DNA of 64,000 nucleotides, from assembly GCF_029635795.1 (NCBI RefSeq), contig NZ_CP114280.1, positions 1,116,001-1,180,000 on the forward strand, written 5' to 3'. This document shows positions 1-41,803 of the stretch, one piece after another. The notes below the pieces were generated by a model. It was not told where the DNA came from and searched no databases. It was given only the letters and a program-made list of their open reading frames with translations. The position numbers were made by a program, and so were the translations under genes. This DNA comes from Dickeya lacustris (GTDB lineage Bacteria > Pseudomonadota > Gammaproteobacteria > Enterobacterales > Enterobacteriaceae). The number at the start of each line of letters is the position of its first letter. Position 1 is the stretch's first letter.

Positions 1-1127
1 TTCGGTGTGAGGGTATGAAAGGCGATACCTTTTGGCGTCAGGCTCCAGGCGGCTCCTGCCCAGACATCCGCCGTGCTGTAATCGCATTCGGAGGTCTCGT
101 TATTCTCATCGGCACTGTCATCGGCGCTGTCATCGCGACTGTTGCTGGCATCAGGTGCGGTATGGTTGCCCGGCTGCGCTTCCTGCGCCGCTTTCATCTG
201 TTGCGGGTAGAGCCGGGTGAATTGCGCCATCAGCCAGTTGGGTAACGTGTCTTGTAAGTAGCTATCCGGGATGGCGTCTTTATCCGGTATCGGCCCGTCA
301 GCCACCCAGAGCAGGTCAGCGAGTGACGGCACATTCGAGGCATCGCTGACGCGCAGTGTTCGGGGCGAGACATCAAGATAGGGATGCGCCGCGCCGAGGC
401 AGCTTCGCAACCCGGAGGCCACATAGCTGATGGCGTTATCTGACAATAAGGTAATGTTCAGAACATCCTGCGAATTTTCGCACTGCGGGACAATATCCAA
501 CACCGCGCGCCAGAAATTATCACGCAGCGTCGCATTCAACGCATCAAGACGTTCAGCCGGGTAGCCTGAGGTCAACTGGAAGACGGTGAGTGACGTACCG
601 GGGTCACGCCACCACGTTAGGTTATAACCATTGAAACTGTCCTGTTTCACCACCACCGGCTCCACTTCTTTATGGAACAGGTAATCATAGAGCGAGAGGC
701 CGGCCAGCGAGCGCATAAACGGTGACAGCGTCGCCGGGTCAGGCGCGCTGACAGGCGTAAGCGCCACCGGTATGGCAGCCTGTGAGCCCTGACGCAACTC
801 CCCTTTCAGGTTCTGATTCTCACCGGCCTGCAATGTCATCACGAGGGCGTTTTCAACCGCATCCGACTCGTCATCACCGCTGCCGATGTCATCGACATTG
901 GTATCCAGCGTTATCTTGCCCTGTTTGTTACGTTTACCATTCAGGTGGTGGGTGAGGCGTTCAGGCAACACAAAGTAACGGCTTTCTACCCGTCCGTCGG
1001 GCTGGATATCCAGCTCAAGCACCAGCGGCGAGCTCCCTTGCGTGCCGCTGTACAACACCGGAGCGGCCTGCGCCGCCCCCGCCAGCCCCATCGTCAGGAC
1101 ACAGGCAATAACATGAAAGTATTTCAT
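1..1127 (-). CDS. Secreted protein of the array, type D (3' end outside window)
   Basis: Function not recognised. The frame starts at an ATG and stays open to the window edge, giving about 375 residues without a stop. It opens with a Sec signal peptide (MKYFHVIACVLTMGLAGAAQA, mature end near residue 22). An N-terminal beta-rich segment begins VLYSGTQGSSPLVLELD. The second domain has the array hallmarks: SPFM, SLYDYLF, a WW pair in NLTWWRDPG, then QLTSGYPAERLDALNATL. Near the edge it reaches WSLTPKGIAF, matching the WxLTPQGIxF motif of the neighbours. An acidic Asp/Ser-rich stretch just before that motif is peculiar to this copy. It is the most 3' visible member of the minus-strand array, so it is probably co-transcribed with the others. 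Likely location: periplasm. Confidence 0.75.
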   Translation of the reverse strand, partial: MKYFHVIACVLTMGLAGAAQAAPVLYSGTQGSSPLVLELDIQPDGRVESRYFVLPERLTHHLNGKRNKQGKITLDTNVDDIGSGDDESDAVENALVMTLQAGENQNLKGELRQGSQAAIPVALTPVSAPDPATLSPFMRSLAGLSLYDYLFHKEVEPVVVKQDSFNGYNLTWWRDPGTSLTVFQLTSGYPAERLDALNATLRDNFWRAVLDIVPQCENSQDVLNITLLSDNAISYVASGLRSCLGAAHPYLDVSPRTLRVSDASNVPSLADLLWVADGPIPDKDAIPDSYLQDTLPNWLMAQFTRLYPQQMKAAQEAQPGNHTAPDASNSRDDSADDSADENNETSECDYSTADVWAGAAWSLTPKGIAFHTLTP

Positions 1128-1234
1128 AAGGTGGATACGCTCTCGCTCATACACGATTTCGCTTAATATTTTGCTCGCTCGATAACCTGCTCGCGCAATA
1201 AACCTGAAAAAAGTACCGATACGCGGTGCCATGT

Positions 1235-2192
1235 TTAGGGGCGCTCACGCTCCTCCTGTTGGATATTCACCGCTTTACCGCTCAGGGGTGAGAAGGCGTG
1301 CCAACGGAGCACTGAATCCAAATCAGGAGTAAACTCGCTATAAGTCTCTTCTGTCCTCAATATCGGCTCCGGCACATCCTTATCGGGGTAGATTTTTTTG
1401 CACATCTCTATCGCTTGCTGCGTCTTGCCTATCAGCGCGGGGATTTTAACGACATAACTGATTCGCGATGCTGTCATCTGCGTTATCTGCAGGCGCGGCA
1501 CGATAGGGTCACTATTCTTACCGCACACCTTATAATACTGTATCGTCTGCCACCACTGCTGCTGTAACGCGCGGTTTATCGCCGCCATACTCTGTGCCGG
1601 ATCATCCCCCTACCAGTTGAAAGGTTTTGACCTCCGTGTCATGGTGCTGCCACCAGGCCACACGGTAGCCCCACATGTCTCTTTCCCCCAGAAACTCGGC
1701 CCGATTATCCTGCAAGAGCAGATAGTCATACACCGATGACTCCAGCAACCCCTGAGTCATTGGCGCAATGCGGCCACCGGCCAGCTCCTCTCGCGTCACC
1801 GGCACCAGCGAGACGGGCATACGCCTGCCATCCGGCTGACGCCATACTCCTTGCAGGCGCGCGTTAGCCTCATCTGTGTTCACCAACAGCACCATATGCG
1901 CCCGCTGGTTCAATTCGTTATCACTTAACGCATTGCCCGTTTTCTCTGGCAGCACAATCAGCAGGTCATGGCTGTTGCCCTCATCAAGGGTTAACGTCTT
2001 GCCCCAAACCGTCAGCTCTCGGTTTTGATGCTCGTTGTCGTTAAAAAAGCGCCCGCTCATCCTGCCATTGAGCCGGTTAATCTCCATGACAACGTTATCC
2101 TTCCCGATGGTGCCGCGATACACCTCAGCCCACACACTCTGTGCCAGAGCCAGCAGCCCGAGTACCAGAGCCTTCAGCACACTCCCTTTCAT
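1235..2192 (-). pseudogene. Broken type B secreted protein of the array
   Basis: The 5' part (1602-2192) encodes a signal peptide and type B N-terminal domain (VYRGTIGKDNVVMEI) up to KTFQLV. There the frame breaks in a run of five G at about 1605 and meets TGA. The next frame (1235-1588) continues the same protein: PAQSMAAINRALQQQWW aligns with PAEKMVALNQTLQQRWW of the intact copy at 3766. The continuation ends early (QQEERERP stop), about 130-150 residues short of the intact copies, so the C-terminal LPWSFVNSHP part is missing. A one-base indel plus a 3' truncation therefore inactivates this copy. Seen directly by comparing the three B copies in the window. Confidence 0.8.
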
Positions 2193-2255
2193 TCGCCAAC
2201 CTCTGTCTTTATTTTTATAAAATGGAATTACATGGTGTTAACGGGTTTTGATGCC

Positions 2256-3590
2256 TTAGGGCAGCATCAAATATTGAATACGACCCGGGTGGCTGTTCAC
2301 CACATTCCAGGGCAGCACTGACCAGTCCTCGTCGTTACACACCCCGCTGTTGTCCGGCCTGATCGGTTTAAACAAAATCCCCTGCGGGGTAAGTGACCAG
2401 TACATGTTGAGGTTTTTCGACGAGTAGCTGCCATAGATGCCGTCGTTAGACCAGGTTTCAGTGGCGGTATAATCACACTCACCCGGTGCGCCTTTGGTCA
2501 TTTTGGCCGGATACAGTGTGGTGAATTGTGCGATTAACCACCCGGGAAGCTGCTGTTTTAATTCATACTCACCGCTAGAATCCCGATCATATTCATAATA
2601 CTCAGCGTCATCTAATTTTATCGGCACGGGCAATTTATCAACCCACAGAAGATCGGACAGGCGCAGCTCATCCTCATATGCCAAAGTCGCCGTATTCATC
2701 GAACTACTGCCTTGAGGCATGGCGGTATAAAGCGTGTAGGGATACATTTTCAGTTTCGGCAGCTTATCGTCGTTACACTGGTATTTCCCGCTCAGGATAA
2801 AGCTCATGGCATGGGGCGACAGTAAGGTGATTTTGGTTTGTAGCGTCTGCCCTGGCGGCACATAACAGAAGCTCATCATGCGCAGCGTCTCCCAGTAAGC
2901 GAGTCGCAAAGACGCATTCAGTTTATCGCGTTGCTCTGGCGGGTAGCCGGATTCCACCTGAAACAGTGAAAACCGGGTCACAGGGTCTTGCCACCATGAC
3001 ACGGTGATACCTGCTATCTCCTCGGTTTTAACCTTTATCGGCTCGGCATTTTGATAAAAAAGCCTGTCGTAGTCATACAGATGTTGATGGAGGGTTTGCA
3101 TAAACGGTGAGGCACGAGCGATCTGTTGCTCATTCAGATACAGCACTTGCATAAACGGCGAGGCGCGGGACATCGTTTCATCACTCGGCGCTCGCTCAAT
3201 CTCTGATAACACCACCTTTATCGGTGCGCCGCTCTTATCCCGATATTCGGCAATCAACCCATTATCAGTCCATTCGGTAATCGTCAGTATCTGCTCGGTT
3301 TTCTCGCCCCCTTCACCCGCATCATGGATAAGCTTGAATCCGGTCATCGTATCATTATCGCTACCGGCAGGAGTGGCATCAAAAATGGGTCTGGAACGAT
3401 GCTCTGCAGGGAAAAAATAACGCCCAGAATAAAAACTATCTACCCATTTGTTTATCTCCATGATGATGGGTTTGTCATCGATTTTCCCTTCATATAAAAA
3501 GTGATCTACGGGGATCGCCGCCTGACTGTCGAGAACCATCAGGCTCAAAACCAGTGCCAGCCCTCGGGCTGCTTTCGCGAATAAGTTCAT
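2256..3590 (-). CDS. Secreted protein of the array, type C (copy 2)
   Basis: Function not recognised. I chose the ATG at 3590 because it opens a good signal peptide (MNLFAKAARGLALVLSLMVL, cleavage near SQAA). The frame is open to 3710 and the extra stretch is hydrophobic, so an upstream start cannot be excluded; neither start has a strong ribosome site. The mature protein has an N-terminal segment (FLYEGKIDDKPIIMEI), a middle domain with VSWWQDP and FQVESGYPPEQRDKLNASL, two short SPFMQ repeats (RASPFMQ twice within about 17 residues) and a C-terminal WSLTPQGILF ... WSVLPWNVVNSHPG. Paired cysteines in the C-terminal half suggest disulfides. It lies downstream of B (3766) and upstream of the broken B. 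The paralogue at 6173 is close in sequence and length. Confidence 0.75.
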   Translation of the reverse strand: MNLFAKAARGLALVLSLMVLDSQAAIPVDHFLYEGKIDDKPIIMEINKWVDSFYSGRYFFPAEHRSRPIFDATPAGSDNDTMTGFKLIHDAGEGGEKTEQILTITEWTDNGLIAEYRDKSGAPIKVVLSEIERAPSDETMSRASPFMQVLYLNEQQIARASPFMQTLHQHLYDYDRLFYQNAEPIKVKTEEIAGITVSWWQDPVTRFSLFQVESGYPPEQRDKLNASLRLAYWETLRMMSFCYVPPGQTLQTKITLLSPHAMSFILSGKYQCNDDKLPKLKMYPYTLYTAMPQGSSSMNTATLAYEDELRLSDLLWVDKLPVPIKLDDAEYYEYDRDSSGEYELKQQLPGWLIAQFTTLYPAKMTKGAPGECDYTATETWSNDGIYGSYSSKNLNMYWSLTPQGILFKPIRPDNSGVCNDEDWSVLPWNVVNSHPGRIQYLMLP

Positions 3591-3765
3591 GTTAAGTAAA
3601 CGAATAAGAAAGAAGAGCGACACTATAACAGAATTAATGAGTATGCCTACGGCCTGGCAGAATACTCCGGGCCGGAAACGCCGTAGCGACGATGATTGAC
3701 TACGTAGCATCCGACACCGGCATCAGGGCGTACCGCAGCCGGGTCTTCCCCGGCTGCGGCGGGCG

Positions 3766-5016
3766 TCAGGGCAGATTGCGCTCGGCATCCGGCACATTCG
3801 CGGCCGGATGACTGTTCACAAATGACCAGGGCAACACCGCCCATTGATAGTGGGTGAGATGGGTAATGTTGCCAAACAGCCCGTCGTCAGGATTAGCATA
3901 GAAACGCAGCCCCTGAGCCGTGGCGAACCAGTTATCCGACACCCCAGACCATCGTTCAGGTGAAAAATCGGCAGGATAAGGCAATGCCGCCAGCGCGTCG
4001 CGGTTCAACGCTTGCAACTGGCCCATCAGCCATTTCGGCAACGCCCGGTCAAAATCGGCATACAGCAGTTGATACTCGCCTGCCGCATTGGTCTCACCGA
4101 TGGAGAACAACTGCGACAAGTTGACCGGTTTGCCGGTGCGCGTGGAAAGGGTGTAGGGCCTGACGATAAACACTTGCTCTTTTTGTTGATCGTCTCTGAA
4201 CGCAGCAGGCACATCGTCATACGCGATGGTGGCCCCACAATCACTGTGGTGTACCTGTTCGACATAACTGACCAGCGAGGCAGACAACAAGGTTATCTGG
4301 ATGCGTTGTATCAGGGTGCCGCCGTTATCCACACACACCTGTTGATTCAGCACAGTTTTCCACCAGCGCTGCTGTAACGTCTGGTTCAGCGCCACCATCT
4401 TCTCGGCAGGATACCCGCTCACCAGTTGAAAGGTTTTCACCCTGGTGGTGCGGTTCTGCCACCAGGCGATACGGTATTCCCCCATGTCCCTTTCGCCCAA
4501 AAACTCCGGCGGCTCCGCCTGCAATAACAGGTAGTCATACAGCGAAACATCCTTCAGCCCGCGCATGATGGGTAAGGCGCTATCGCTCGCGACATCGTTC
4601 TGGCTGATGCGTACCAGATTAACCGGCAGGCGCGTGCCGTTCGGCTCACGCCACACGCCTTTCAGGCGCTGCTCGGCATCATTAGGCAACAGCACCATAT
4701 TCGTCATTTTACTCAGCTCGTCACCACTGAACGAACTCACTGACTCACCGCGCTTATCCTGCACATCGGGTACGATAACCAGCGACTCAAGGGTCTTCTC
4801 GGTATCCCCAACAGACACAAAATCAACCCAGGCTCTCAGCTTACGGTCTTTATGCTCCCGTTCGGTGAAAAAGCGCCCGGTGGCCATCATGTCACCGGTG
4901 ATAAGCTCCATCACCACCTTTTCCTTGCCTATTGTGCCACGATAGACATCGGCCCACGCCGCCTGCGCCAGGGCAAGCCCCCCCAGTATCAGTGCTTTTA
5001 TCGTGATACCTTTCAT
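3766..5016 (-). CDS. Secreted protein of the array, type B (copy 2)
   Basis: Function not recognised. 416 residues with a Sec signal peptide (MKGITIKALILGGLALAQAAWA, cleavage before DVYRG). N-terminal domain YRGTIGKEKVVMELI ... GRFFTEREHKDRKL; middle domain SLYDYLLLQ ... RIAWWQN, TFQLVSGYPAEKMVALNQTL; C-terminal domain WFATAQGLRFYAN ... WAVLPWSFVNSHPA. The first ~25 residues are nearly identical to the copy at 7650, while the middle diverges, so the two have drifted or been selected differently since duplication. It sits between A (5116) and C (2256) in the repeated A-B-C order. Probably periplasmic. Confidence 0.78.
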   Translation of the reverse strand: MKGITIKALILGGLALAQAAWADVYRGTIGKEKVVMELITGDMMATGRFFTEREHKDRKLRAWVDFVSVGDTEKTLESLVIVPDVQDKRGESVSSFSGDELSKMTNMVLLPNDAEQRLKGVWREPNGTRLPVNLVRISQNDVASDSALPIMRGLKDVSLYDYLLLQAEPPEFLGERDMGEYRIAWWQNRTTRVKTFQLVSGYPAEKMVALNQTLQQRWWKTVLNQQVCVDNGGTLIQRIQITLLSASLVSYVEQVHHSDCGATIAYDDVPAAFRDDQQKEQVFIVRPYTLSTRTGKPVNLSQLFSIGETNAAGEYQLLYADFDRALPKWLMGQLQALNRDALAALPYPADFSPERWSGVSDNWFATAQGLRFYANPDDGLFGNITHLTHYQWAVLPWSFVNSHPAANVPDAERNLP

Positions 5017-5115
5017 TCATCCAGCCCCGCCATTGGTATTTATAACGTATTGTTTAGTCATGGTTTTTAACGGTAATGCACTGATGACCGCAGCCATCGT
5101 CACGGCTTCCCGCCG

Positions 5116-6012
5116 TTATGGCATCACCGTCTTGGTCAGCGGCCCCGGATTGGCCTGTAACAGGCTCCACGGCAACACCACGGCCTCCTCACTACGGCAC
5201 GTTTGCTCGACATCATCTTTATCGGTAGCACGCAGATGAAAACCGGAATCCTGCAAGGCGGGATAAAAGCGGATACCCTGCGGCGTCAGCGCCCACACAT
5301 CATCGCTCCACACAACAAACTCCTCCTCCTCTCCGCTGTCAAAAAAATAGCTACACTGCGAATAGCGGGCCTGGAACTGCTGTTGAAGCCAGTGTGTGAG
5401 TGCGGGGACACGGTGGTCTATCTCAATCAATTGGTTACGTAGCAGTGCTGAGGCAGGAATATCACGCACGAGCAGCACGTCATCAATCGACAAGCGTTTC
5501 ACCGTCTCGGTGGCAATGTTACGGGTGCTGAACAGTACCTGTTTGCCTTCCGCCCCGCAGTCCAACACCGCTTTGATTTGGTAGCTGATGACCTTCGGCG
5601 AAACCCATATCAGTGACAATTCATGGCTCGCCTTTCCGGTTGCCCCCTCGGAGCAGTCGCCTTTTTTCTCGAATAACATGGTGTGCATCGCGGCATTCAG
5701 GACATTATTAAGCTGAGTGCGCGTATTGGCGGTGTATCCGCTGGTGATTTGCGGATACGTCACCCCGCTTTTCGGCTCGCGCCACCAGCTAATGCCAAAA
5801 CCATTGCGCGTCTCCTGCCTGACTACGCTCAAATCCGCGCCGGTCGCTTTTTCATACGCCTTGGTATCTGACCAATAGAGCCACTGCCGGAAAGGGGAAG
5901 CCTGTGACGAAGGGGCAGGCTTGTCGGCAACCGCCGAGGCGGTGAAAAAACAGCCCACCAAAAGCCCGATACCCGCCGCCCAGCGTGCTGTGAGTGTGTG
6001 AAATCGTGTCAT
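5116..6012 (-). CDS. Secreted protein of the array, type A (copy 2)
   Basis: Function not recognised. 298 residues with a signal peptide (MTRFHTLTARWAAGIGLLVG ... SAVA). Type A lacks the N-terminal YxGxIG-like domain of types B, C and D and begins almost at once with the shared domain: SPFRQWLYW, ISWWREP, QITSGYTANTRTQLNNVL. It ends with VWALTPQGIRFYP ... VVLPWSLLQANPGPLTKTVMP. Four cysteines at positions conserved with the copy at 9002 suggest two disulfides in the periplasm. First gene of the second A-B-C module. Confidence 0.78.
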   Translation of the reverse strand: MTRFHTLTARWAAGIGLLVGCFFTASAVADKPAPSSQASPFRQWLYWSDTKAYEKATGADLSVVRQETRNGFGISWWREPKSGVTYPQITSGYTANTRTQLNNVLNAAMHTMLFEKKGDCSEGATGKASHELSLIWVSPKVISYQIKAVLDCGAEGKQVLFSTRNIATETVKRLSIDDVLLVRDIPASALLRNQLIEIDHRVPALTHWLQQQFQARYSQCSYFFDSGEEEEFVVWSDDVWALTPQGIRFYPALQDSGFHLRATDKDDVEQTCRSEEAVVLPWSLLQANPGPLTKTVMP

Positions 6013-6172
6013 GTTCAGTCAGTAAATAAAAAATGCAAAGGCACTGCCCGTAAAGGCTCGCCTGACAAAGGCCGCCACCGCAACACCACGGCCCAACCTG
6101 CCAGCCCACGCTGGCATCCGCCTCATGGCTGCTCCGCACACAGGTGCGAGAAAGCCGCGCCAGAGCCTTTCA

Positions 6173-7477
6173 TTAAGGCAATGACAGATATTGAATACGA
6201 CCGGGATAGCGGTTCACCACACGCCAGGGCAGCACCGACCAGTCTTCGTTATCACACACGCCGCTGCCATCAGGTTTGATTGGTTTAAACAAAATGCCCT
6301 GTGGCGTCAGCGACCAGCGCATCACCGCCCAGCGCCCGGCGCTGCCAAGAGGAAACCAGCGTTTGTGCGACCAGGTTTCCGTCTCGGTGTAATCACAGGC
6401 ACCCGGCGCGCCTTTGGTCATTTTGGCCGGATAGAGTGCGCTAAACTGCTCTTTTAACCAGCCGGGGAGACTATTTTCCAGCTGTTCTTCACCGTCATCA
6501 TCGCCGCTCTCATGCGCATCGTTGATAACCGGCACCGGCAAACTATCGATCCAAAGCACGTCGGATAAGCGCAGCTCGTCGAATGCTGCCTGGGCTTTCT
6601 CCCCCTCATGCTCCCGCAGGCTTAAGGTATGGGTAAACAGTTTGATCTGCGCTTGCTCATCGCCCTGACATTGATATTTTCCGGTCAGGGTGTAGCTCAT
6701 CGCATTGGCTGACAGCAAATTGATTTGGGTTTTCAACCCGTCTTGCCTGCGGCACAGGCTCATCTGCGAAAGCGTATCCCAGTAGACGGTGCGCAAATAG
6801 CGATTCACGCGCTCGCGCTGCTCCGGCGTGTAACCGGACTCCACCTGAAACAGTGAAAACTGGCTGACCGGGTCTTGCCACCACGTCACGGTAATACCGC
6901 CTGTTTGCGTTTGGTTAACCCTGGTGGGTTCCGCGTCACGATAAAAAAACCAGTCGTAAGCGTACAGGCTCTCATGGAGCGTTTTCATAAACGCAGAGGG
7001 CTGACCGGCGGTGTTCTTATCCCATTCCAGTGGCGATAACACCACCTTTTGCACCGCCCCTTTGTCTGCGCGCAACTCGCCGGACAAGGTGCCAGACTCG
7101 CTATTGCTGCGCAGCAGCAGGATGGGCTCGGCACCGGCGTTTGCCTCGTCAGCGTAGCGCCCCAGCTTGAGTTTGACAGGTTCAGCATCATCACTCAGCT
7201 CTTTCGTGCCGTCATTCGATATCAGAATAGGGCGGGAAATGCGTTCCGAGGGGAAAAAATAGCGCCCGGACATCACGTCCCAGCCCTCTATCACCAACTC
7301 GATAACAACCGGCTGCCCCGCTATCTGCCCTTCATAGACCCGATGAGATACCGACAGTGTCTGACCAAAAATGCCGTCTTCTACCGCGTCAGTCTCCGCC
7401 AGCGCAACCTGACTATAACTCGCCATCAGGCTCACGGTTAATGCCAGCCCTCGGGCTGCTTTCGCTAATAAGTTCAT
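6173..7477 (-). CDS. Secreted protein of the array, type C (copy 1)
   Basis: Function not recognised. Start at the ATG giving MNLLAKAARGLALTVSLMAS with cleavage near ALA; the frame is open to 7549. The hydrophobic upstream stretch (IVSFFFFIRLLN) is also conserved in the other C copy, but no Shine-Dalgarno sequence distinguishes the starts. Motifs: HRVYEGQIAGQPVVIEL, GRYFFPSE, VTWWQDPVSQFSLFQVESGY, WSLTPQGILFKPIKP, WSVLPWRVVNRYPGRIQYL. The region around the start (about 7440-7540) is almost the same as around 3555-3650, direct evidence of a recent module duplication. Confidence 0.76.
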   Translation of the reverse strand: MNLLAKAARGLALTVSLMASYSQVALAETDAVEDGIFGQTLSVSHRVYEGQIAGQPVVIELVIEGWDVMSGRYFFPSERISRPILISNDGTKELSDDAEPVKLKLGRYADEANAGAEPILLLRSNSESGTLSGELRADKGAVQKVVLSPLEWDKNTAGQPSAFMKTLHESLYAYDWFFYRDAEPTRVNQTQTGGITVTWWQDPVSQFSLFQVESGYTPEQRERVNRYLRTVYWDTLSQMSLCRRQDGLKTQINLLSANAMSYTLTGKYQCQGDEQAQIKLFTHTLSLREHEGEKAQAAFDELRLSDVLWIDSLPVPVINDAHESGDDDGEEQLENSLPGWLKEQFSALYPAKMTKGAPGACDYTETETWSHKRWFPLGSAGRWAVMRWSLTPQGILFKPIKPDGSGVCDNEDWSVLPWRVVNRYPGRIQYLSLP

Positions 7478-7649
7478 GTTAAGTAAACGAATAAAAAAGA
7501 AGAACGACACTATAGCAGAATTAATGAATATAAATACCGGGTAGCGCAACGCCCGTGGCAGAAACAGCCTGACGGCGAGGATGTGATGCGCCGCACGCCA
7601 CCGGCATCAGGGTGTACCGCAGCCGGGTCTCCCCCGGCTGCGGCGATCG

Positions 7650-8903
7650 TCAGGGCAGATTGCGCTCGGCATCCGGCACATTCACCGCCGGGTGGCTGTT
7701 TACAAATGACCAGGGCAACACCGTCCATTGCGGGCCGGTTATCTGGCCGGTCTCGCCAAACACATCGTATGGCAGACGGGCGTAAACGCGCAGCCCCTGC
7801 TCGGTAGCAAACCAGTTCCTCGACACCTCCTGCCACTCTTTTGCCAGCAGAGGGGCCGTCGGGTCGGGCGAGGCCGCCAGCTTATCGTGGTACAACGCCT
7901 GCAACTGCATCGTCAGCCATCTCGGCAACGCCCGGTCAAAATCGGCATACAGCAGTTGATACTCGCCTGCCGCATTGGTCTCGCCGATGGAGAACAACTG
8001 CGACAAGCTAACCGGTTTGTGGGTGCGGGTCGAAAGGGTGTAGGACCTGATAGCCTGCGTCTGTAATTTGTCGTTTTCTTTACTCGCTTCAGCGGCCCCC
8101 GCTTCAGCCGTGATAGAGGCTTTACACTGACTATCATGTAATTGCTCGACATAGCTGACCAACGAAGCGGACAACAGGGTTATCTGAATACGCTGATTCA
8201 ACGTGCCGTCACTATTCTCGCAGATTTTCGGGCCCAGCACGGTTTGCCACCAGCGCTGTTGCAACGTCTGGTTCAGCGCCGCCATCGTCTGGGCTGGATA
8301 CCCGCTCACCAGTTGAAAGGTTTTCACCCCGGTGGCGCGATGCTGCCACCAGGCGACACGGTATGGCCCGATGTCCTTTTCGCCCAGAAACTCCGGCATA
8401 TCATGCGGTAATAACAGGTAGTCATACAGCGAGACTGTTTTTAGCCCCTGCATAACGGGCACAGCGTTATCGCTCGCGACATCGTCCTCGCTGATGCGCA
8501 CCAGATCAACCGGCAGGCGCGTGCCATTCGGCTCACGCCATACCCCTTGCAGGCGCTGCCCGGCAGGCTTAATTAACAGCACCATATGTGCAACCTGTAG
8601 CAGCTCATCCTCACTTAACGAACTCTCCCCACCATCAGGCCTGGTGGGGACATCCGGCACCACAATCAAAAAATCGTCCATCGGTTCGGTGTCTTCGTTC
8701 CGTAAGTTATCAGGCCAGATTATCAGTCTACGGCTTTTATGCTCCCGTTCGGTGAAAAAGCGCCCATCGCCCATCATGTCACCCATGATAAGCTCCATCA
8801 CCACCTTTTCCTTACCTATTGTGCCACGATAGACATCGGCCCACGCCGCCTGCGCCAGGGCAAGCCCCCCCAGTATCAGTGCTTTTATCGTGATACTTTT
8901 CAT
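7650..8903 (-). CDS. Secreted protein of the array, type B (copy 1)
   Basis: Function not recognised. 417 residues. The signal peptide is nearly identical to copy 2 (MKSITIKALILGGLALAQAA, then WADVYRG). It has the same three blocks as copy 2: YRGTIGKEKVVMELIMGDMM, a WW motif in RVAWWQH with TFQLVSGYPAQTMAALNQTL, and a C-terminal WFATEQGLRVYAR ... WTVLPWSFVNSHPA. Within the middle, residues around 225-290 differ most from copy 2, including the cysteine-flanked loop. It is followed by C (6173) and preceded by A (9002). Confidence 0.78.
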   Translation of the reverse strand: MKSITIKALILGGLALAQAAWADVYRGTIGKEKVVMELIMGDMMGDGRFFTEREHKSRRLIIWPDNLRNEDTEPMDDFLIVVPDVPTRPDGGESSLSEDELLQVAHMVLLIKPAGQRLQGVWREPNGTRLPVDLVRISEDDVASDNAVPVMQGLKTVSLYDYLLLPHDMPEFLGEKDIGPYRVAWWQHRATGVKTFQLVSGYPAQTMAALNQTLQQRWWQTVLGPKICENSDGTLNQRIQITLLSASLVSYVEQLHDSQCKASITAEAGAAEASKENDKLQTQAIRSYTLSTRTHKPVSLSQLFSIGETNAAGEYQLLYADFDRALPRWLTMQLQALYHDKLAASPDPTAPLLAKEWQEVSRNWFATEQGLRVYARLPYDVFGETGQITGPQWTVLPWSFVNSHPAVNVPDAERNLP

Positions 8904-9001
8904 TCATCCAGCCCCGCCTTTGGTATTTATAACATATTGTTTAGTCATGATTTTTAACGATAACGCAACGAGAACACAGCCAGCACCACGGTTTCGCACC
9001 G

Positions 9002-9877
9002 TTATGGCATCACCGTCTTGGTCAGCGGCCCCGGATTCGCCTGTAACAGGCTCCACGGCAACACCACGACCTGCTCAGTGCGGCAGGTTTTCCTGATATC
9101 GTCATTATCAACAGCGCGCAGATGAAAATCGTAAACCTGCGAAGTGGGATAAAAGCGGATCCCCTGCGGCGTCAGTGCCCACACATCATCGCTCCACTGA
9201 CTACCCTCATCGACATAAAAAAAGTAACCACACTGCGGATAACGCTCACTGAACCGTTCTTCAAGCCAATCTCTCAGTAGCAGAACCTTATGCACCTCCT
9301 GGTCAAAACCCGCTAATTCGTTGCGTATCAGCGGCAGGGGCCGAATATCACGTAAGGCCAATACATCATGAATAGACAAGGGTTTGACATTCTCGGTGGC
9401 AATACTTTGGGTGCTGAACAGCACCTGTTTGCCCTCCGCTCCACAGTCCAACACCTCTTTGATTTGGTAGCTGATGACCATCGGCGAGACCCATATCAGT
9501 GAAAACTCATGGGTCGCCTTGCCGATTGAATCCTCGGAGCAGTAACCTTTTTTACTGGGCATGGTGTACATCGCGGCGTTCAGGACATTATTAAGCTGAG
9601 TGCGCGTATTGGCGTTGTATCCACTGGTTATCTGCGGGTAGGTGTTGCCTGTTAGCGGGTCACGCCACCAGACCACATCAAAGCCATTGATATTTTCCTG
9701 TTTGACCGTGGTCAGATCGGTATTGGTGTAACGCAGATAGTCGTCTGGCTGTGACCAATACAGCCACTGTTTAAATGGCGAAGCCTGTTTCGGGGGAGCC
9801 GACGACTCAGCCGCCGCCACACCCGACACCAGCGCCAGACACACTGCCGCTACCCTGAGTTTTTTTGCGAGTACCAT
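9002..9877 (-). CDS. Secreted protein of the array, type A (copy 1)
   Basis: Function not recognised. 291 residues, signal peptide MVLAKKLRVAAVCLALVSGV with cleavage near AAA. Motifs: SPFKQWLYWS, VVWWRDPLTG, PQITSGYNANTRTQLNNVL, VWALTPQGIRFYP, VVLPWSLLQANPGPLTKTVMP. The insertion sequence ends only 5 bp upstream of the ATG, so the native leader and ribosome site are gone. The IS end places a run of six G about 12 bases before the ATG, which might act as a weak substitute. The whole downstream array may therefore depend on IS-borne or internal promoters. Confidence 0.75.
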   Translation of the reverse strand: MVLAKKLRVAAVCLALVSGVAAAESSAPPKQASPFKQWLYWSQPDDYLRYTNTDLTTVKQENINGFDVVWWRDPLTGNTYPQITSGYNANTRTQLNNVLNAAMYTMPSKKGYCSEDSIGKATHEFSLIWVSPMVISYQIKEVLDCGAEGKQVLFSTQSIATENVKPLSIHDVLALRDIRPLPLIRNELAGFDQEVHKVLLLRDWLEERFSERYPQCGYFFYVDEGSQWSDDVWALTPQGIRFYPTSQVYDFHLRAVDNDDIRKTCRTEQVVVLPWSLLQANPGPLTKTVMP

Positions 9878-9898
9878 GGTATGGTAATCCCCCCATTT

Positions 9899-10588
9899 TT
9901 AACCGGGCAGATAAGTAGAATCAGATAAGCGCTGAATATGCTGCATTGGTGTGAAGCCATTCAGTGCCATATTCGGTCGTTCGTGATTATAGAACCATTG
10001 CCATTGTGTGGCGTATTCCTGTAACTCACTCAGCGAATAAAACAGATAGTGCCCCAGCCAGTCATAACGCACTGTCCGGTTATAACGCTCAATATACGCA
10101 TTCTGTTGTGGCTTCCCCGGCTGAATAAAATTGAGGATGATATTTTGTCGTTCAGCCCATACTATCAGAGTGTTACCTGCATATTCTGGTCCGTTGTCAC
10201 ATCGAATCGATGCCGGTTTCCCTTTCCATTCAATCAGTTGTTCGAGAGTTCTGACTACCCGACTGGCCGGAAGGGAAAAATCGACCTCTATTGCCAGGGC
10301 CTCGCGATTGAAATCATCAATAATATTCAGCAGACGAACGGAGCGACCATCTGACAACTGATCATGCATAAAATCCATTGACCAACTCTCGTTACTGCCA
10401 GTGGGGACCCTCAGTGGTTCCGGCTTTTCACGTTTCAACCGTTTTTTAGGTTTTATCCGCATATTCAGCGACAGTTCGCAGTAAATCCGGTAAATTCTCT
10501 TGTGGTTCCAGACAAAGCCTTTCACGTTGCGCAGATACAGGTAACACAGGCCGAAGCCCCAGTTTCGCTGGCTGTCCGTGATGCGCAC
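9899..10588 (-). CDS. IS3-family transposase OrfB (DDE integrase domain), copy 1
   Basis: Retroviral-integrase-like DDE catalytic domain: first Asp in SWSMDFMHD, second in IRCDNGPEY, Glu in [12 protein letters not shown]. The frame is open upstream to 10699, where TGA closes it. The residues before the listed GTG ([10 protein letters not shown] ... RIADWLV) are typical OrfB sequence. Family alignment suggests one G is missing in the GGGG run near 10691, since [11 protein letters not shown] should be continuous. If so, OrfB cannot be reached by a single -1 shift from OrfA, and this copy may be inactive or need trans help. Confidence 0.85.
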
Positions 10589-10620
10589 CAGCCAGTCAGC
10601 AATCCGTTGATTTTCCTGAC

Positions 10621-11007
10621 TCAGTAAGCGCCTGTATCGGTAGCAACATTCGCTGACGACAAAGAGCTGACAGGCCAGACGGATACTGATCCCCGGTGTT
10701 CAACTGCATGCAGAGCCATCTGCTTCCGGTCTGATGGATTCAAAACTTTTTTTGCCATCGCTTCCTGAATAATTTCGGCCTTCAGACGCTCTTCAGCATA
10801 CATTTTTTTTAGTCGGCGATTTTCTTCTTCAAGCTCTTTCAGTCGGCTCATCAGTGCAGCATCCATCCCGCCAAACTTTGAGCGCCATTTATAAAAACTG
10901 GCACTGCTGATGCCATGCTCCCGGCACAGTTCAGGAACCGGCGTACCCGCCTCAGCCTGTTTGAGAATGGTGATGATCTGACTGTCAGTAAAACGTGATC
11001 GTTTCAT
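10621..11007 (-). CDS. IS3-family transposase OrfA, copy 1 (extended frame)
   Basis: Helix-turn-helix protein that binds the IS ends. It starts [20 protein letters not shown], with an HTH around [20 protein letters not shown] and a leucine-zipper-like coiled coil ([19 protein letters not shown]). In this copy the A-run at the frameshift site has seven A, so the frame runs on into what is normally the start of orfB ([17 protein letters not shown]) and then leaves the OrfB frame, ending after 128 codons. In copy 2 the run has six A and OrfA ends after 88 codons. Confidence 0.85.
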
Positions 11008-11093
11008 AGAAATCCCCCTGCATTCAGGTTAGGAGAAAATTCTACTTATGCATGCACTGGTTTTTCGGGGGGATTACCGATAGACGAATAAAT

Positions 11094-40695: not shown

Positions 40696-41385
40696 TTAAC
40701 CGGGCAGATAAGTAGAATCAGATAAGCGCTGAATATGCTGCATTGGTGTGAAGCCATTCAGTGCCATATTCGGTCGTTCGTGATTATAGAACCATTGCCA
40801 TTGTGTGGCGTATTCCTGTAACTCACTCAGCGAATAAAACAGATAGTGCCCCAGCCAGTCATAACGCACTGTCCGGTTATAACGCTCAATATACGCATTC
40901 TGTTGTGGCTTCCCCGGCTGAATAAAATTGAGGATGATATTTTGTCGTTCAGCCCATACTATCAGAGTGTTACCTGCATATTCTGGTCCGTTGTCACATC
41001 GAATCGATGCCGGTTTCCCTTTCCATTCAATCAGTTGTTCGAGAGTTCTGACTACCCGACTGGCCGGAAGGGAAAAATCGACCTCTATTGCCAGGGCCTC
41101 GCGATTGAAATCATCAATAATATTCAGCAGACGAACGGAGCGACCATCTGACAACTGATCATGCATAAAATCCATTGACCAACTCTCGTTACTGCCAGTG
41201 GGGACCCTCAGTGGTTCCGGCTTTTCACGTTTCAACCGTTTTTTAGGTTTTATCCGCATATTCAGCGACAGTTCGCAGTAAATCCGGTAAATTCTCTTGT
41301 GGTTCCAGACAAAGCCTTTCACGTTGCGCAGATACAGGTAACACAGGCCGAAGCCCCAGTTTCGCTGGCTGTCCGTGATGCGCAC
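40696..41385 (-). CDS. IS3-family transposase OrfB, copy 2
   Basis: Same DDE-domain protein as in copy 1 ([24 protein letters not shown]). Shares with copy 1 the apparent missing G upstream (GGGG run near 41488), which closes the frame with TGA before the expected OrfA junction. The shared lesion shows that both copies descend from the same form. Confidence 0.87.
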
Positions 41386-41536
41386 CAGCCAGTCAGCAAT
41401 CCGTTGATTTTCCTGACTCAGTAAGCGCCTGTATCGGTAGCAACATTCGCTGACGACAAAGAGCTGACAGGCCAGACGGATACTGATCCCCGGTGTTCAA
41501 CTGCATGCAGAGCCATCTGCTTCCGGTCTGATGGCT

Positions 41537-41803
41537 TCACCACTTTTTTGCCATCGCTTCCTGAATAATTTCGGCCTTCAGACGCTCTTCAGCATACATT
41601 TTTTTTAGTCGGCGATTTTCTTCTTCAAGCTCTTTCAGTCGGCTCATCAGTGCAGCATCCATCCCGCCAAACTTTGAGCGCCATTTATAAAAACTGGCAC
41701 TGCTGATGCCATGCTCCCGGCACAGTTCAGGAACCGGCGTACCCGCCTCAGCCTGTTTGAGAATGGTGATGATCTGACTGTCAGTAAAACGTGATCGTTT
41801 CAT
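41537..41803 (-). CDS. IS3-family transposase OrfA, copy 2
   Basis: 88 residues, identical to copy 1 up to MAKK and then W and stop. The A6G run (AAAAAAG) just before the end is a slippery site for the -1 shift that IS3 elements use to make OrfAB. HTH and coiled coil as in copy 1. Confidence 0.9.
   Translation of the reverse strand: MKRSRFTDSQIITILKQAEAGTPVPELCREHGISSASFYKWRSKFGGMDAALMSRLKELEEENRRLKKMYAEERLKAEIIQEAMAKKW

Follow-up and report, generated by a model that had tools for sequence, protein, structure and literature searches.

What is the function of a tandem array of related, apparently exported proteins in the soft-rot bacterium Dickeya lacustris? The question is raised by a stretch of 64,000 nucleotides (assembly GCF_029635795.1, contig NZ_CP114280.1, positions 1,116,001 to 1,180,000; hereafter the window), at the start of which a first-pass annotation, made from the sequence alone, had described at least eight related secreted proteins. 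We found that the array is real and larger than this, comprising ten family genes that lie side by side on the minus strand in the reading order A1, B1, C1, A2, B2, C2, B3, D, E, F, with an eleventh copy, G, outside it, although one of the original eight, B3, is broken. Because of the RsiV-like fold of these proteins and the company kept by their N-terminal barrel, we propose that they represent a new family of periplasmic (or released) soluble inhibitors of lysozyme-like, glycan-cutting wall hydrolases, amplified in some Dickeya; we put the probability of this reading at about 0.6. Below, G000 denotes the D. lacustris genome under study, L005 the 20 kb holding the array, and G001 a sister-species Dickeya genome; other L numbers denote further loci.

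The two domains and their company

The AlphaFold model of one member, F (predicted local distance difference test score 90), consists of two domains. In comparison with structures in the PDB, residues 166-384 adopt the two-part RsiV / DUF4163-DUF3298 fold, and all six structures matched at E<=0.001 have this fold, lysozyme-bound RsiV among them. RsiV is an anti-sigma factor of Bacillus subtilis that serves as a receptor and inhibitor of lysozyme (PDB 5jen); PA4972 (4e72), 3cyg and 3s5t show the same combination of DUF4163 (PdaC) and DUF3298. The N-terminal part of F is modeled as an avidin/lipocalin-like barrel of eight strands. Profile comparison with DUF3298 proteins supported the relationship for the DUF3298 half only, with an hhalign probability of 95.8 and an E value of 6.6e-9 (controls, 0.2-0.3), and the GGAHG motif of DUF3298 is matched by the loop CGG(A)HPD of relatives outside Dickeya. 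The DUF3298-like link that the first-pass annotation had proposed for the C-terminal domain was thus recovered, but its other candidates were not, as no MliC (PF09864) or lipocalin model was found among the Pfam matches of the array proteins. The Ivy model (PF08816) was not among these matches either; G000 has one Ivy match and one MliC match elsewhere in the genome. Two further proteins, L118 and L119, resemble the array family over 282 columns but not the DUF3298 set (0.4), and were therefore not counted as proof.

The motifs xWWxxP, Q(V/L/I)xSGYxxxxxxxLN, WxLTPQGIxF and VLPW(S/N) are common to all members, and the A types lack the first domain, as had been seen before. Cysteines C215/C249 are invariant, and C324/C357 are lost together in the B types. 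The proteins appear to be exported, as judged by eye, rather than by a signal-peptide program, from their cysteine pairs and their hydrophobic N-termini, which end in A-x-A. They differ from RsiV in having their own signal peptide-like N-terminus, with no anti-sigma domain or membrane anchor seen by eye and no room before it, and also in their two cysteine pairs, the N-terminal barrel, the weak similarity to both Pfam models and the tandem arrangement.

The ten intact proteins are not named by any model of Pfam, NCBIfam, PHROGs or PADLOC, in line with the earlier failure to name a family: the few Pfam and NCBIfam matches were at chance level and below cut-off, and the ten array proteins matched nothing in PHROGs or PADLOC at E<=0.01. 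A sequence search with A2 alone returned three proteins, two of them from G000, and a search of the PDB by sequence gave no credible match; in one sequence search, scoring was restricted to the 8000 candidates sharing most words. No publication on these arrays was found in the literature searched, and papers beyond that set could exist. The family is real and undescribed, and combines a known inhibitor fold and a new domain partner in an array of unusual form.

A profile of the barrel alone (A7, built with L033, L074, L075, L079 and L080, which it matches by construction) detected 16 of 394 genomes of the order, and outside G000 it identified 18 genes of varied architecture. In two of these proteins, and in L079 from a separate draw of genomes, the barrel is fused to an XAC2610-family domain (L115, E 2.6e-19; L116, E 1.4e-19; L079, E 6.3e-9), and L116 matches the solved XAC2610 at E 0.019. 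XAC2610 is reported to confer immunity to a lysozyme-like effector, and the authors of that work liken it to Tsi1 and to PliI, a lysozyme inhibitor (PMC10933484). These peptidoglycan-hydrolase inhibitors are linked to the array by the barrel module that is fused to an XAC2610-family domain in L079, L115 and L116; theirs is a different inhibitor fold, and no XAC2610 model matches the array proteins. L133 carries a PdaC-like domain ahead of the barrel, at an E value of 4.5e-5 that misses the Pfam cut-off. In two genomes of the order (L113, L114) the barrel is fused to ankyrin repeats, and in L080, L108, L110 and L122 to an unnamed but conserved C-terminal domain some 120 residues long; L110, the same gene as in L132, lies in a type VI effector cluster.

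Type VI clusters account for three of the 19 barrel-bearing contexts examined outside Dickeya (L099-L103, L130-L143). That of L099 includes N-acetylmuramidase, LprI, PAAR, a TssM-like protein and TssF, and that of L132 a VgrG3-like C-terminal domain, glucosaminidase, TsiV3 and PAAR. In L140, TssM-like and TssF genes occur together with a gene, 4.5 kb from the barrel gene, for one protein with Phage_lysozyme (E 9.1e-28) and M23 domains, and the two pieces adjoining the barrel gene match no Pfam effector domain; the TssM of L099 and L140 scores under the NCBIfam cut-off. Each of the three clusters thus has a glycan-cutting enzyme: a muramidase, a glucosaminidase and a Phage_lysozyme-domain protein, respectively. 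The type VI immunity family TsiV3 and the inhibitor family LprI, as neighbors of barrel proteins, are likely to do the same kind of job, although neither these nor the lysozyme inhibitors Ivy and MliC match the array in sequence.

Divergence of the paralogues and of two loops

Residues 163-171 and 255-261 of RsiV, among others, contact lysozyme (PMC5014341, table 2). By hidden Markov model alignment, a mapping of sequences and not a superposition, they correspond to residues 249-258 and 347-360 of F; B1 has a long insertion within the first of these loops. We compared positional entropy between 25 Dickeya proteins, near-identical orthologues included, and 38 relatives outside Dickeya, excluding B3, P0004, P0005 and P0007 as broken or already represented. 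Outside Dickeya both loops are conserved (1.20 and 1.50 vs. a core mean of 1.63), and, counted by eye, 36 of the 38 proteins keep CGG at the first loop. In Dickeya the loops exceed the core in variability (2.26 and 2.58 vs. 1.91), and CGG is found by eye in 4 of the 25 proteins and in none of the ten intact copies of G000. When windows were ranked by their excess of variability over the outside set, the first loop stood 9th of 245 and the second 13th of 241, and the five top windows of both rankings begin at 242-250, around the first loop; restricted to the ten copies of G000, the comparison gave ranks of 17 of 245 and 21 of 241. These ranks describe a pattern and not a probability, as the windows overlap and one ancestral change may count many times. 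Loop 277-293 has a higher entropy in Dickeya (2.39) than loop 249-258, but it is variable outside Dickeya as well (1.95).

The history of the array could be followed by comparison with G001. A1, B1 and C2 are 95, 95 and 91% identical to the single A, B and C of G001, with a synonymous divergence (dS) of 0.05-0.11, and the paralogue pairs A1/A2, B1/B2 and C1/C2 show a dS of 0.50-1.21. Since the paralogues are more diverged than the orthologues, the duplication of A-B-C predates the species split, and C1-A2-B2 were probably lost in G001, from which F is absent as well. The duplication itself, as claimed earlier, was confirmed by the open reading frames and by 14 families of direct repeats, each spaced 3883-3920 bp (near 3.89 kb).

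Strong divergence in the middle of the proteins, next to nearly identical signal peptides, had been noted, and arrays of this kind had been taken to suggest diversifying selection. The near identity holds for B1/B2, with proportions of synonymous (pS) and non-synonymous (pN) differences in the first 40 codons of 0.05 and 0.03, and here the synonymous sites agree too; it does not hold for C1/C2 (0.51 and 0.24) or A1/A2 (0.76 and 0.49). After these 40 codons, pS of B1/B2 is 0.47 and 0.51 in the next two windows and 0.14-0.58 in the remainder, and pS of A1/A2 falls to 0.28-0.29 at codons 81-160 from 0.67-0.76 before. Along both pairs, non-synonymous divergence goes up and down in step with synonymous divergence. 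Such stretches, in which synonymous divergence is low, point to gene conversion among the paralogues, and the contrast between signal peptide and middle is by itself no sign of selection. The gene-wide ratio of non-synonymous to synonymous divergence (dN/dS), from which B3 was excluded, is 0.38 for A1/A2, 0.45 for B1/B2, 0.31 for C1/C2, 0.22 for D/G and 0.28 for E/F (dS could not be computed for D/E), and it ranges over 0.06-0.48 in six orthologue pairs of G000 and G001. These ratios therefore do not demonstrate diversifying selection.

A possible set of hydrolase inhibitors and the alternatives

In the proposed mechanism, two loops of the core, forming a saddle, would enter the active-site cleft of a hydrolase and plug it, as RsiV does, and the barrel would supply a second contact, or a second specificity or breadth. 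Both modules would then serve one end, the capture and blocking of enzymes that cut glycan strands, and the ten divergent intact copies would form a repertoire against several hydrolases, whether host or protist lysozymes or the muramidase effectors of rival bacteria. This would agree with the earlier idea of inhibitors or receptors directed at outside factors. In Gram-negative bacteria, the known lysozyme inhibitors are mostly encoded by single genes and narrow in target. If the proposal is true, bacteria would possess, in this recombining set of ten genes on the RsiV fold, a counterpart of a variable-receptor array, aimed at wall-cutting enzymes. A lysozyme receptor of Gram-positive bacteria could then be tied, in a testable way, to type VI immunity and to plant-associated bacteria, and names would be given to a barrel module and a protein family outside the coverage of Pfam and NCBIfam. 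A more specific version, which we offer tentatively and as falling short of an even chance, is a modular inhibitor family in which the barrel is joined in either order to RsiV-like, XAC2610-like or other folds, and whose Dickeya branch may have become a gene-converting repertoire, with saddle loops freed from family-wide conservation, diverging by copy and polyvalent against many muramidases.

Several results weigh against the inhibitor reading. No array protein scores above the Pfam gathering cut-off for PF13739 (PdaC/DUF4163) or PF11738 (DUF3298); across the family, PdaC matched 9 and DUF3298 1 of 44 members, weakly (best E 0.076 and 0.039), and the DUF3298 model finds nothing within the G000 genome. 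The RsiV fold occurs also in proteins with other or unknown roles (4e72, 3cyg, 3s5t and MPT64). The loops align with those of RsiV, but the contact residues are not kept in the Dickeya paralogues and vary between them, and the invariant Tyr/Ala-His of DUF3298 is not kept either. Gene-wide dN/dS is below 1 in every computed pair, and no positive selection was found at this gene-wide level. The barrel proteins of the type VI clusters lack the RsiV-like core. Of the 35 named loci of relatives (L038-L072), none yielded a TssM, TssF, muramidase or VgrG3-like gene in a type VI search with ten single-sequence queries over 58 loci (1,037,608 bases).

The type VI data bear most directly on a target-specific version of the hydrolase-inhibitor explanation, in which the array genes would be orphan immunity genes that protect against peptidoglycan-cutting effectors injected by rivals, and not against host or protist lysozymes. 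The three type VI clusters in which the barrel accompanies glycan-cutting effector genes and known families of immunity proteins or inhibitors would fit this, as would the tandem, variable copies, the signs of gene conversion and the single chromosomal site that holds other genes in some relatives. We nevertheless regard it as possible but on the unlikely side, given the missing core in those clusters and the absence of type VI core genes from the named loci. A PAAR gene lies 6.5 kb from a family member in L049, the only such case among the 35. The idea of two-domain genes in type VI neighborhoods was rejected, as the barrel proteins found next to core type VI genes all have other C-termini. 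L005 yielded no type VI gene, and the array genes do not adjoin a cognate effector, their neighbors being genes for a flavin mononucleotide (FMN) reductase and a solute-binding protein.

The same barrel could instead bind a small molecule, with the RsiV-like core serving as a scaffold or assisting the cell's own wall enzymes, much as such a domain accompanies a deacetylase in PdaC; the fold's occurrence in proteins of other roles leaves room for such carriers or sensors, and the recurrent association with glycan-cutting enzymes speaks for the inhibitor reading, and we consider carriers or sensors improbable. We give even less credence to a decaying, lineage-specific duplication of little present function, maintained by gene conversion. 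The broken B3, the lack of C1-A2-B2 and F in G001, the five of nine Dickeya genomes without copies and the dN/dS values of up to 0.48 would be expected under decay, but G is intact, as are nine of the ten array genes, the ten intact copies share two invariant cysteines and several invariant tryptophans, and D differs from its orthologue by a pN of only 0.002 (dN/dS 0.06).

Gene layout, distribution and flanking elements

The window wholly contains seven array genes, the broken B3 included; its edge runs through D, and E and F are beyond it. The coordinates are given in Table 1.

Table 1. Array genes, the separate copy G and the adjacent insertion sequence (IS) element; positions refer to the window unless prefixed.
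Feature	Position	Strand	Description
A1	9002..9877	-	291 aa; RsiV-like core alone, without barrel; signal peptide inferred; 95% aa identity to G001 orthologue
B1	7650..8903	-	417 aa; barrel and core; without second Cys pair
C1	6173..7477	-	Barrel and core; 434 aa from ATG (TTG at 7549 is a possible start)
A2	5116..6012	-	298 aa; core alone; 64% identity to A1
B2	3766..5016	-	416 aa; barrel and core; 68% identity to B1
C2	2256..3590	-	444 aa from inner ATG (ATG at 3710 also possible); barrel and core; 91% identity to single C of G001
B3	1235..2192	-	Broken B-type gene; pieces 1602-2192 and 1235-1588 in different frames; C-terminal third missing
D	1..1127, past window start, ends at L005:9904	-	407 aa; barrel and core
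E	L005:8614-9804	-	Outside window
F	L005:7398-8552	-	Outside window
G	G000:C1:1335863-1337011		Eleventh copy, 210 kb from array
IS element beside A1	9883..11078	-	ORFs (open reading frames) 9899-10588 (integrase core) and 10621-11007 (transposase helix-turn-helix)

The counterpart of B3 in G001 also lacks the C-terminal third. Promoter-like matches in the array were fewer than in shuffled sequences (6 vs. a mean of 10.1) and terminator-like matches about equal (11 vs. 12.7), and neither result was used; a 12-pair stem follows F at L005:7333-7302.

The IS element beside A1, which we take to be of the IS3 type, is one of ten copies in G000, another of which lies in the window at 40696-41803. A copy at G000:C1:1337141-1338335 is 99% identical to it and on the opposite strand. 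G and A are adjacent in G001, and in G000 the IS element lies between them. Two different four-base target duplications (ATAC and TATC) are swapped between the two IS copies, each copy now having one end of both, which is evidence that G was moved by an inversion of about 211 kb through recombination between the copies, the IS element beside A1 being a break point.

Copy number is variable. The types belong to one fold family, but the nine Dickeya genomes hold 0-11 copies: G000 has ten intact copies and B3, G001 six intact and a truncated B3, G004 three and G008 two. The Dickeya copies sit at one ancestral site, between the FMN reductase and solute-binding-protein genes identified with Pfam, and the five other genomes (L155-L159) have no member there. 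This site is an insertion hot spot. It is filled by other genes in L155, L157 and L158, holds about 1 kb with short open reading frames in L156 and is essentially empty in L159; L157 and L158 share a gene set that includes, by eye, a transporter, an amidohydrolase and a formyltransferase-like gene. An origin from plasmids or phages was rejected, as tblastn with F gave no match among 72,556 plasmid and 50,697 phage records.

Outside Dickeya, 7 of 98 other genomes drawn gave a match, in six of them over most of the profile. In a draw across the class, at least 2 of 369 genomes matched, G000 itself and one with the barrel only; this is a lower bound, since at most five candidates were scored per genome and five of the G000 copies were recovered. 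The 35 named loci belong to Pseudomonas, Rhodanobacter, Chromobacterium, Aquitalea and others, 22 of them with a single copy and 13, all Pseudomonas, with two or three. The single-copy enterobacterial relatives L073, L075 and L076 adjoin a DUF1176 gene (E 3.9e-86 in L075; the others by eye) and, by eye, a NUDIX-like gene. Relatives in Pseudomonas lie beside or between DUF6933 genes, as in L043 (11205-11960, E 1.9e-16) and, by eye, in L049 and L055.
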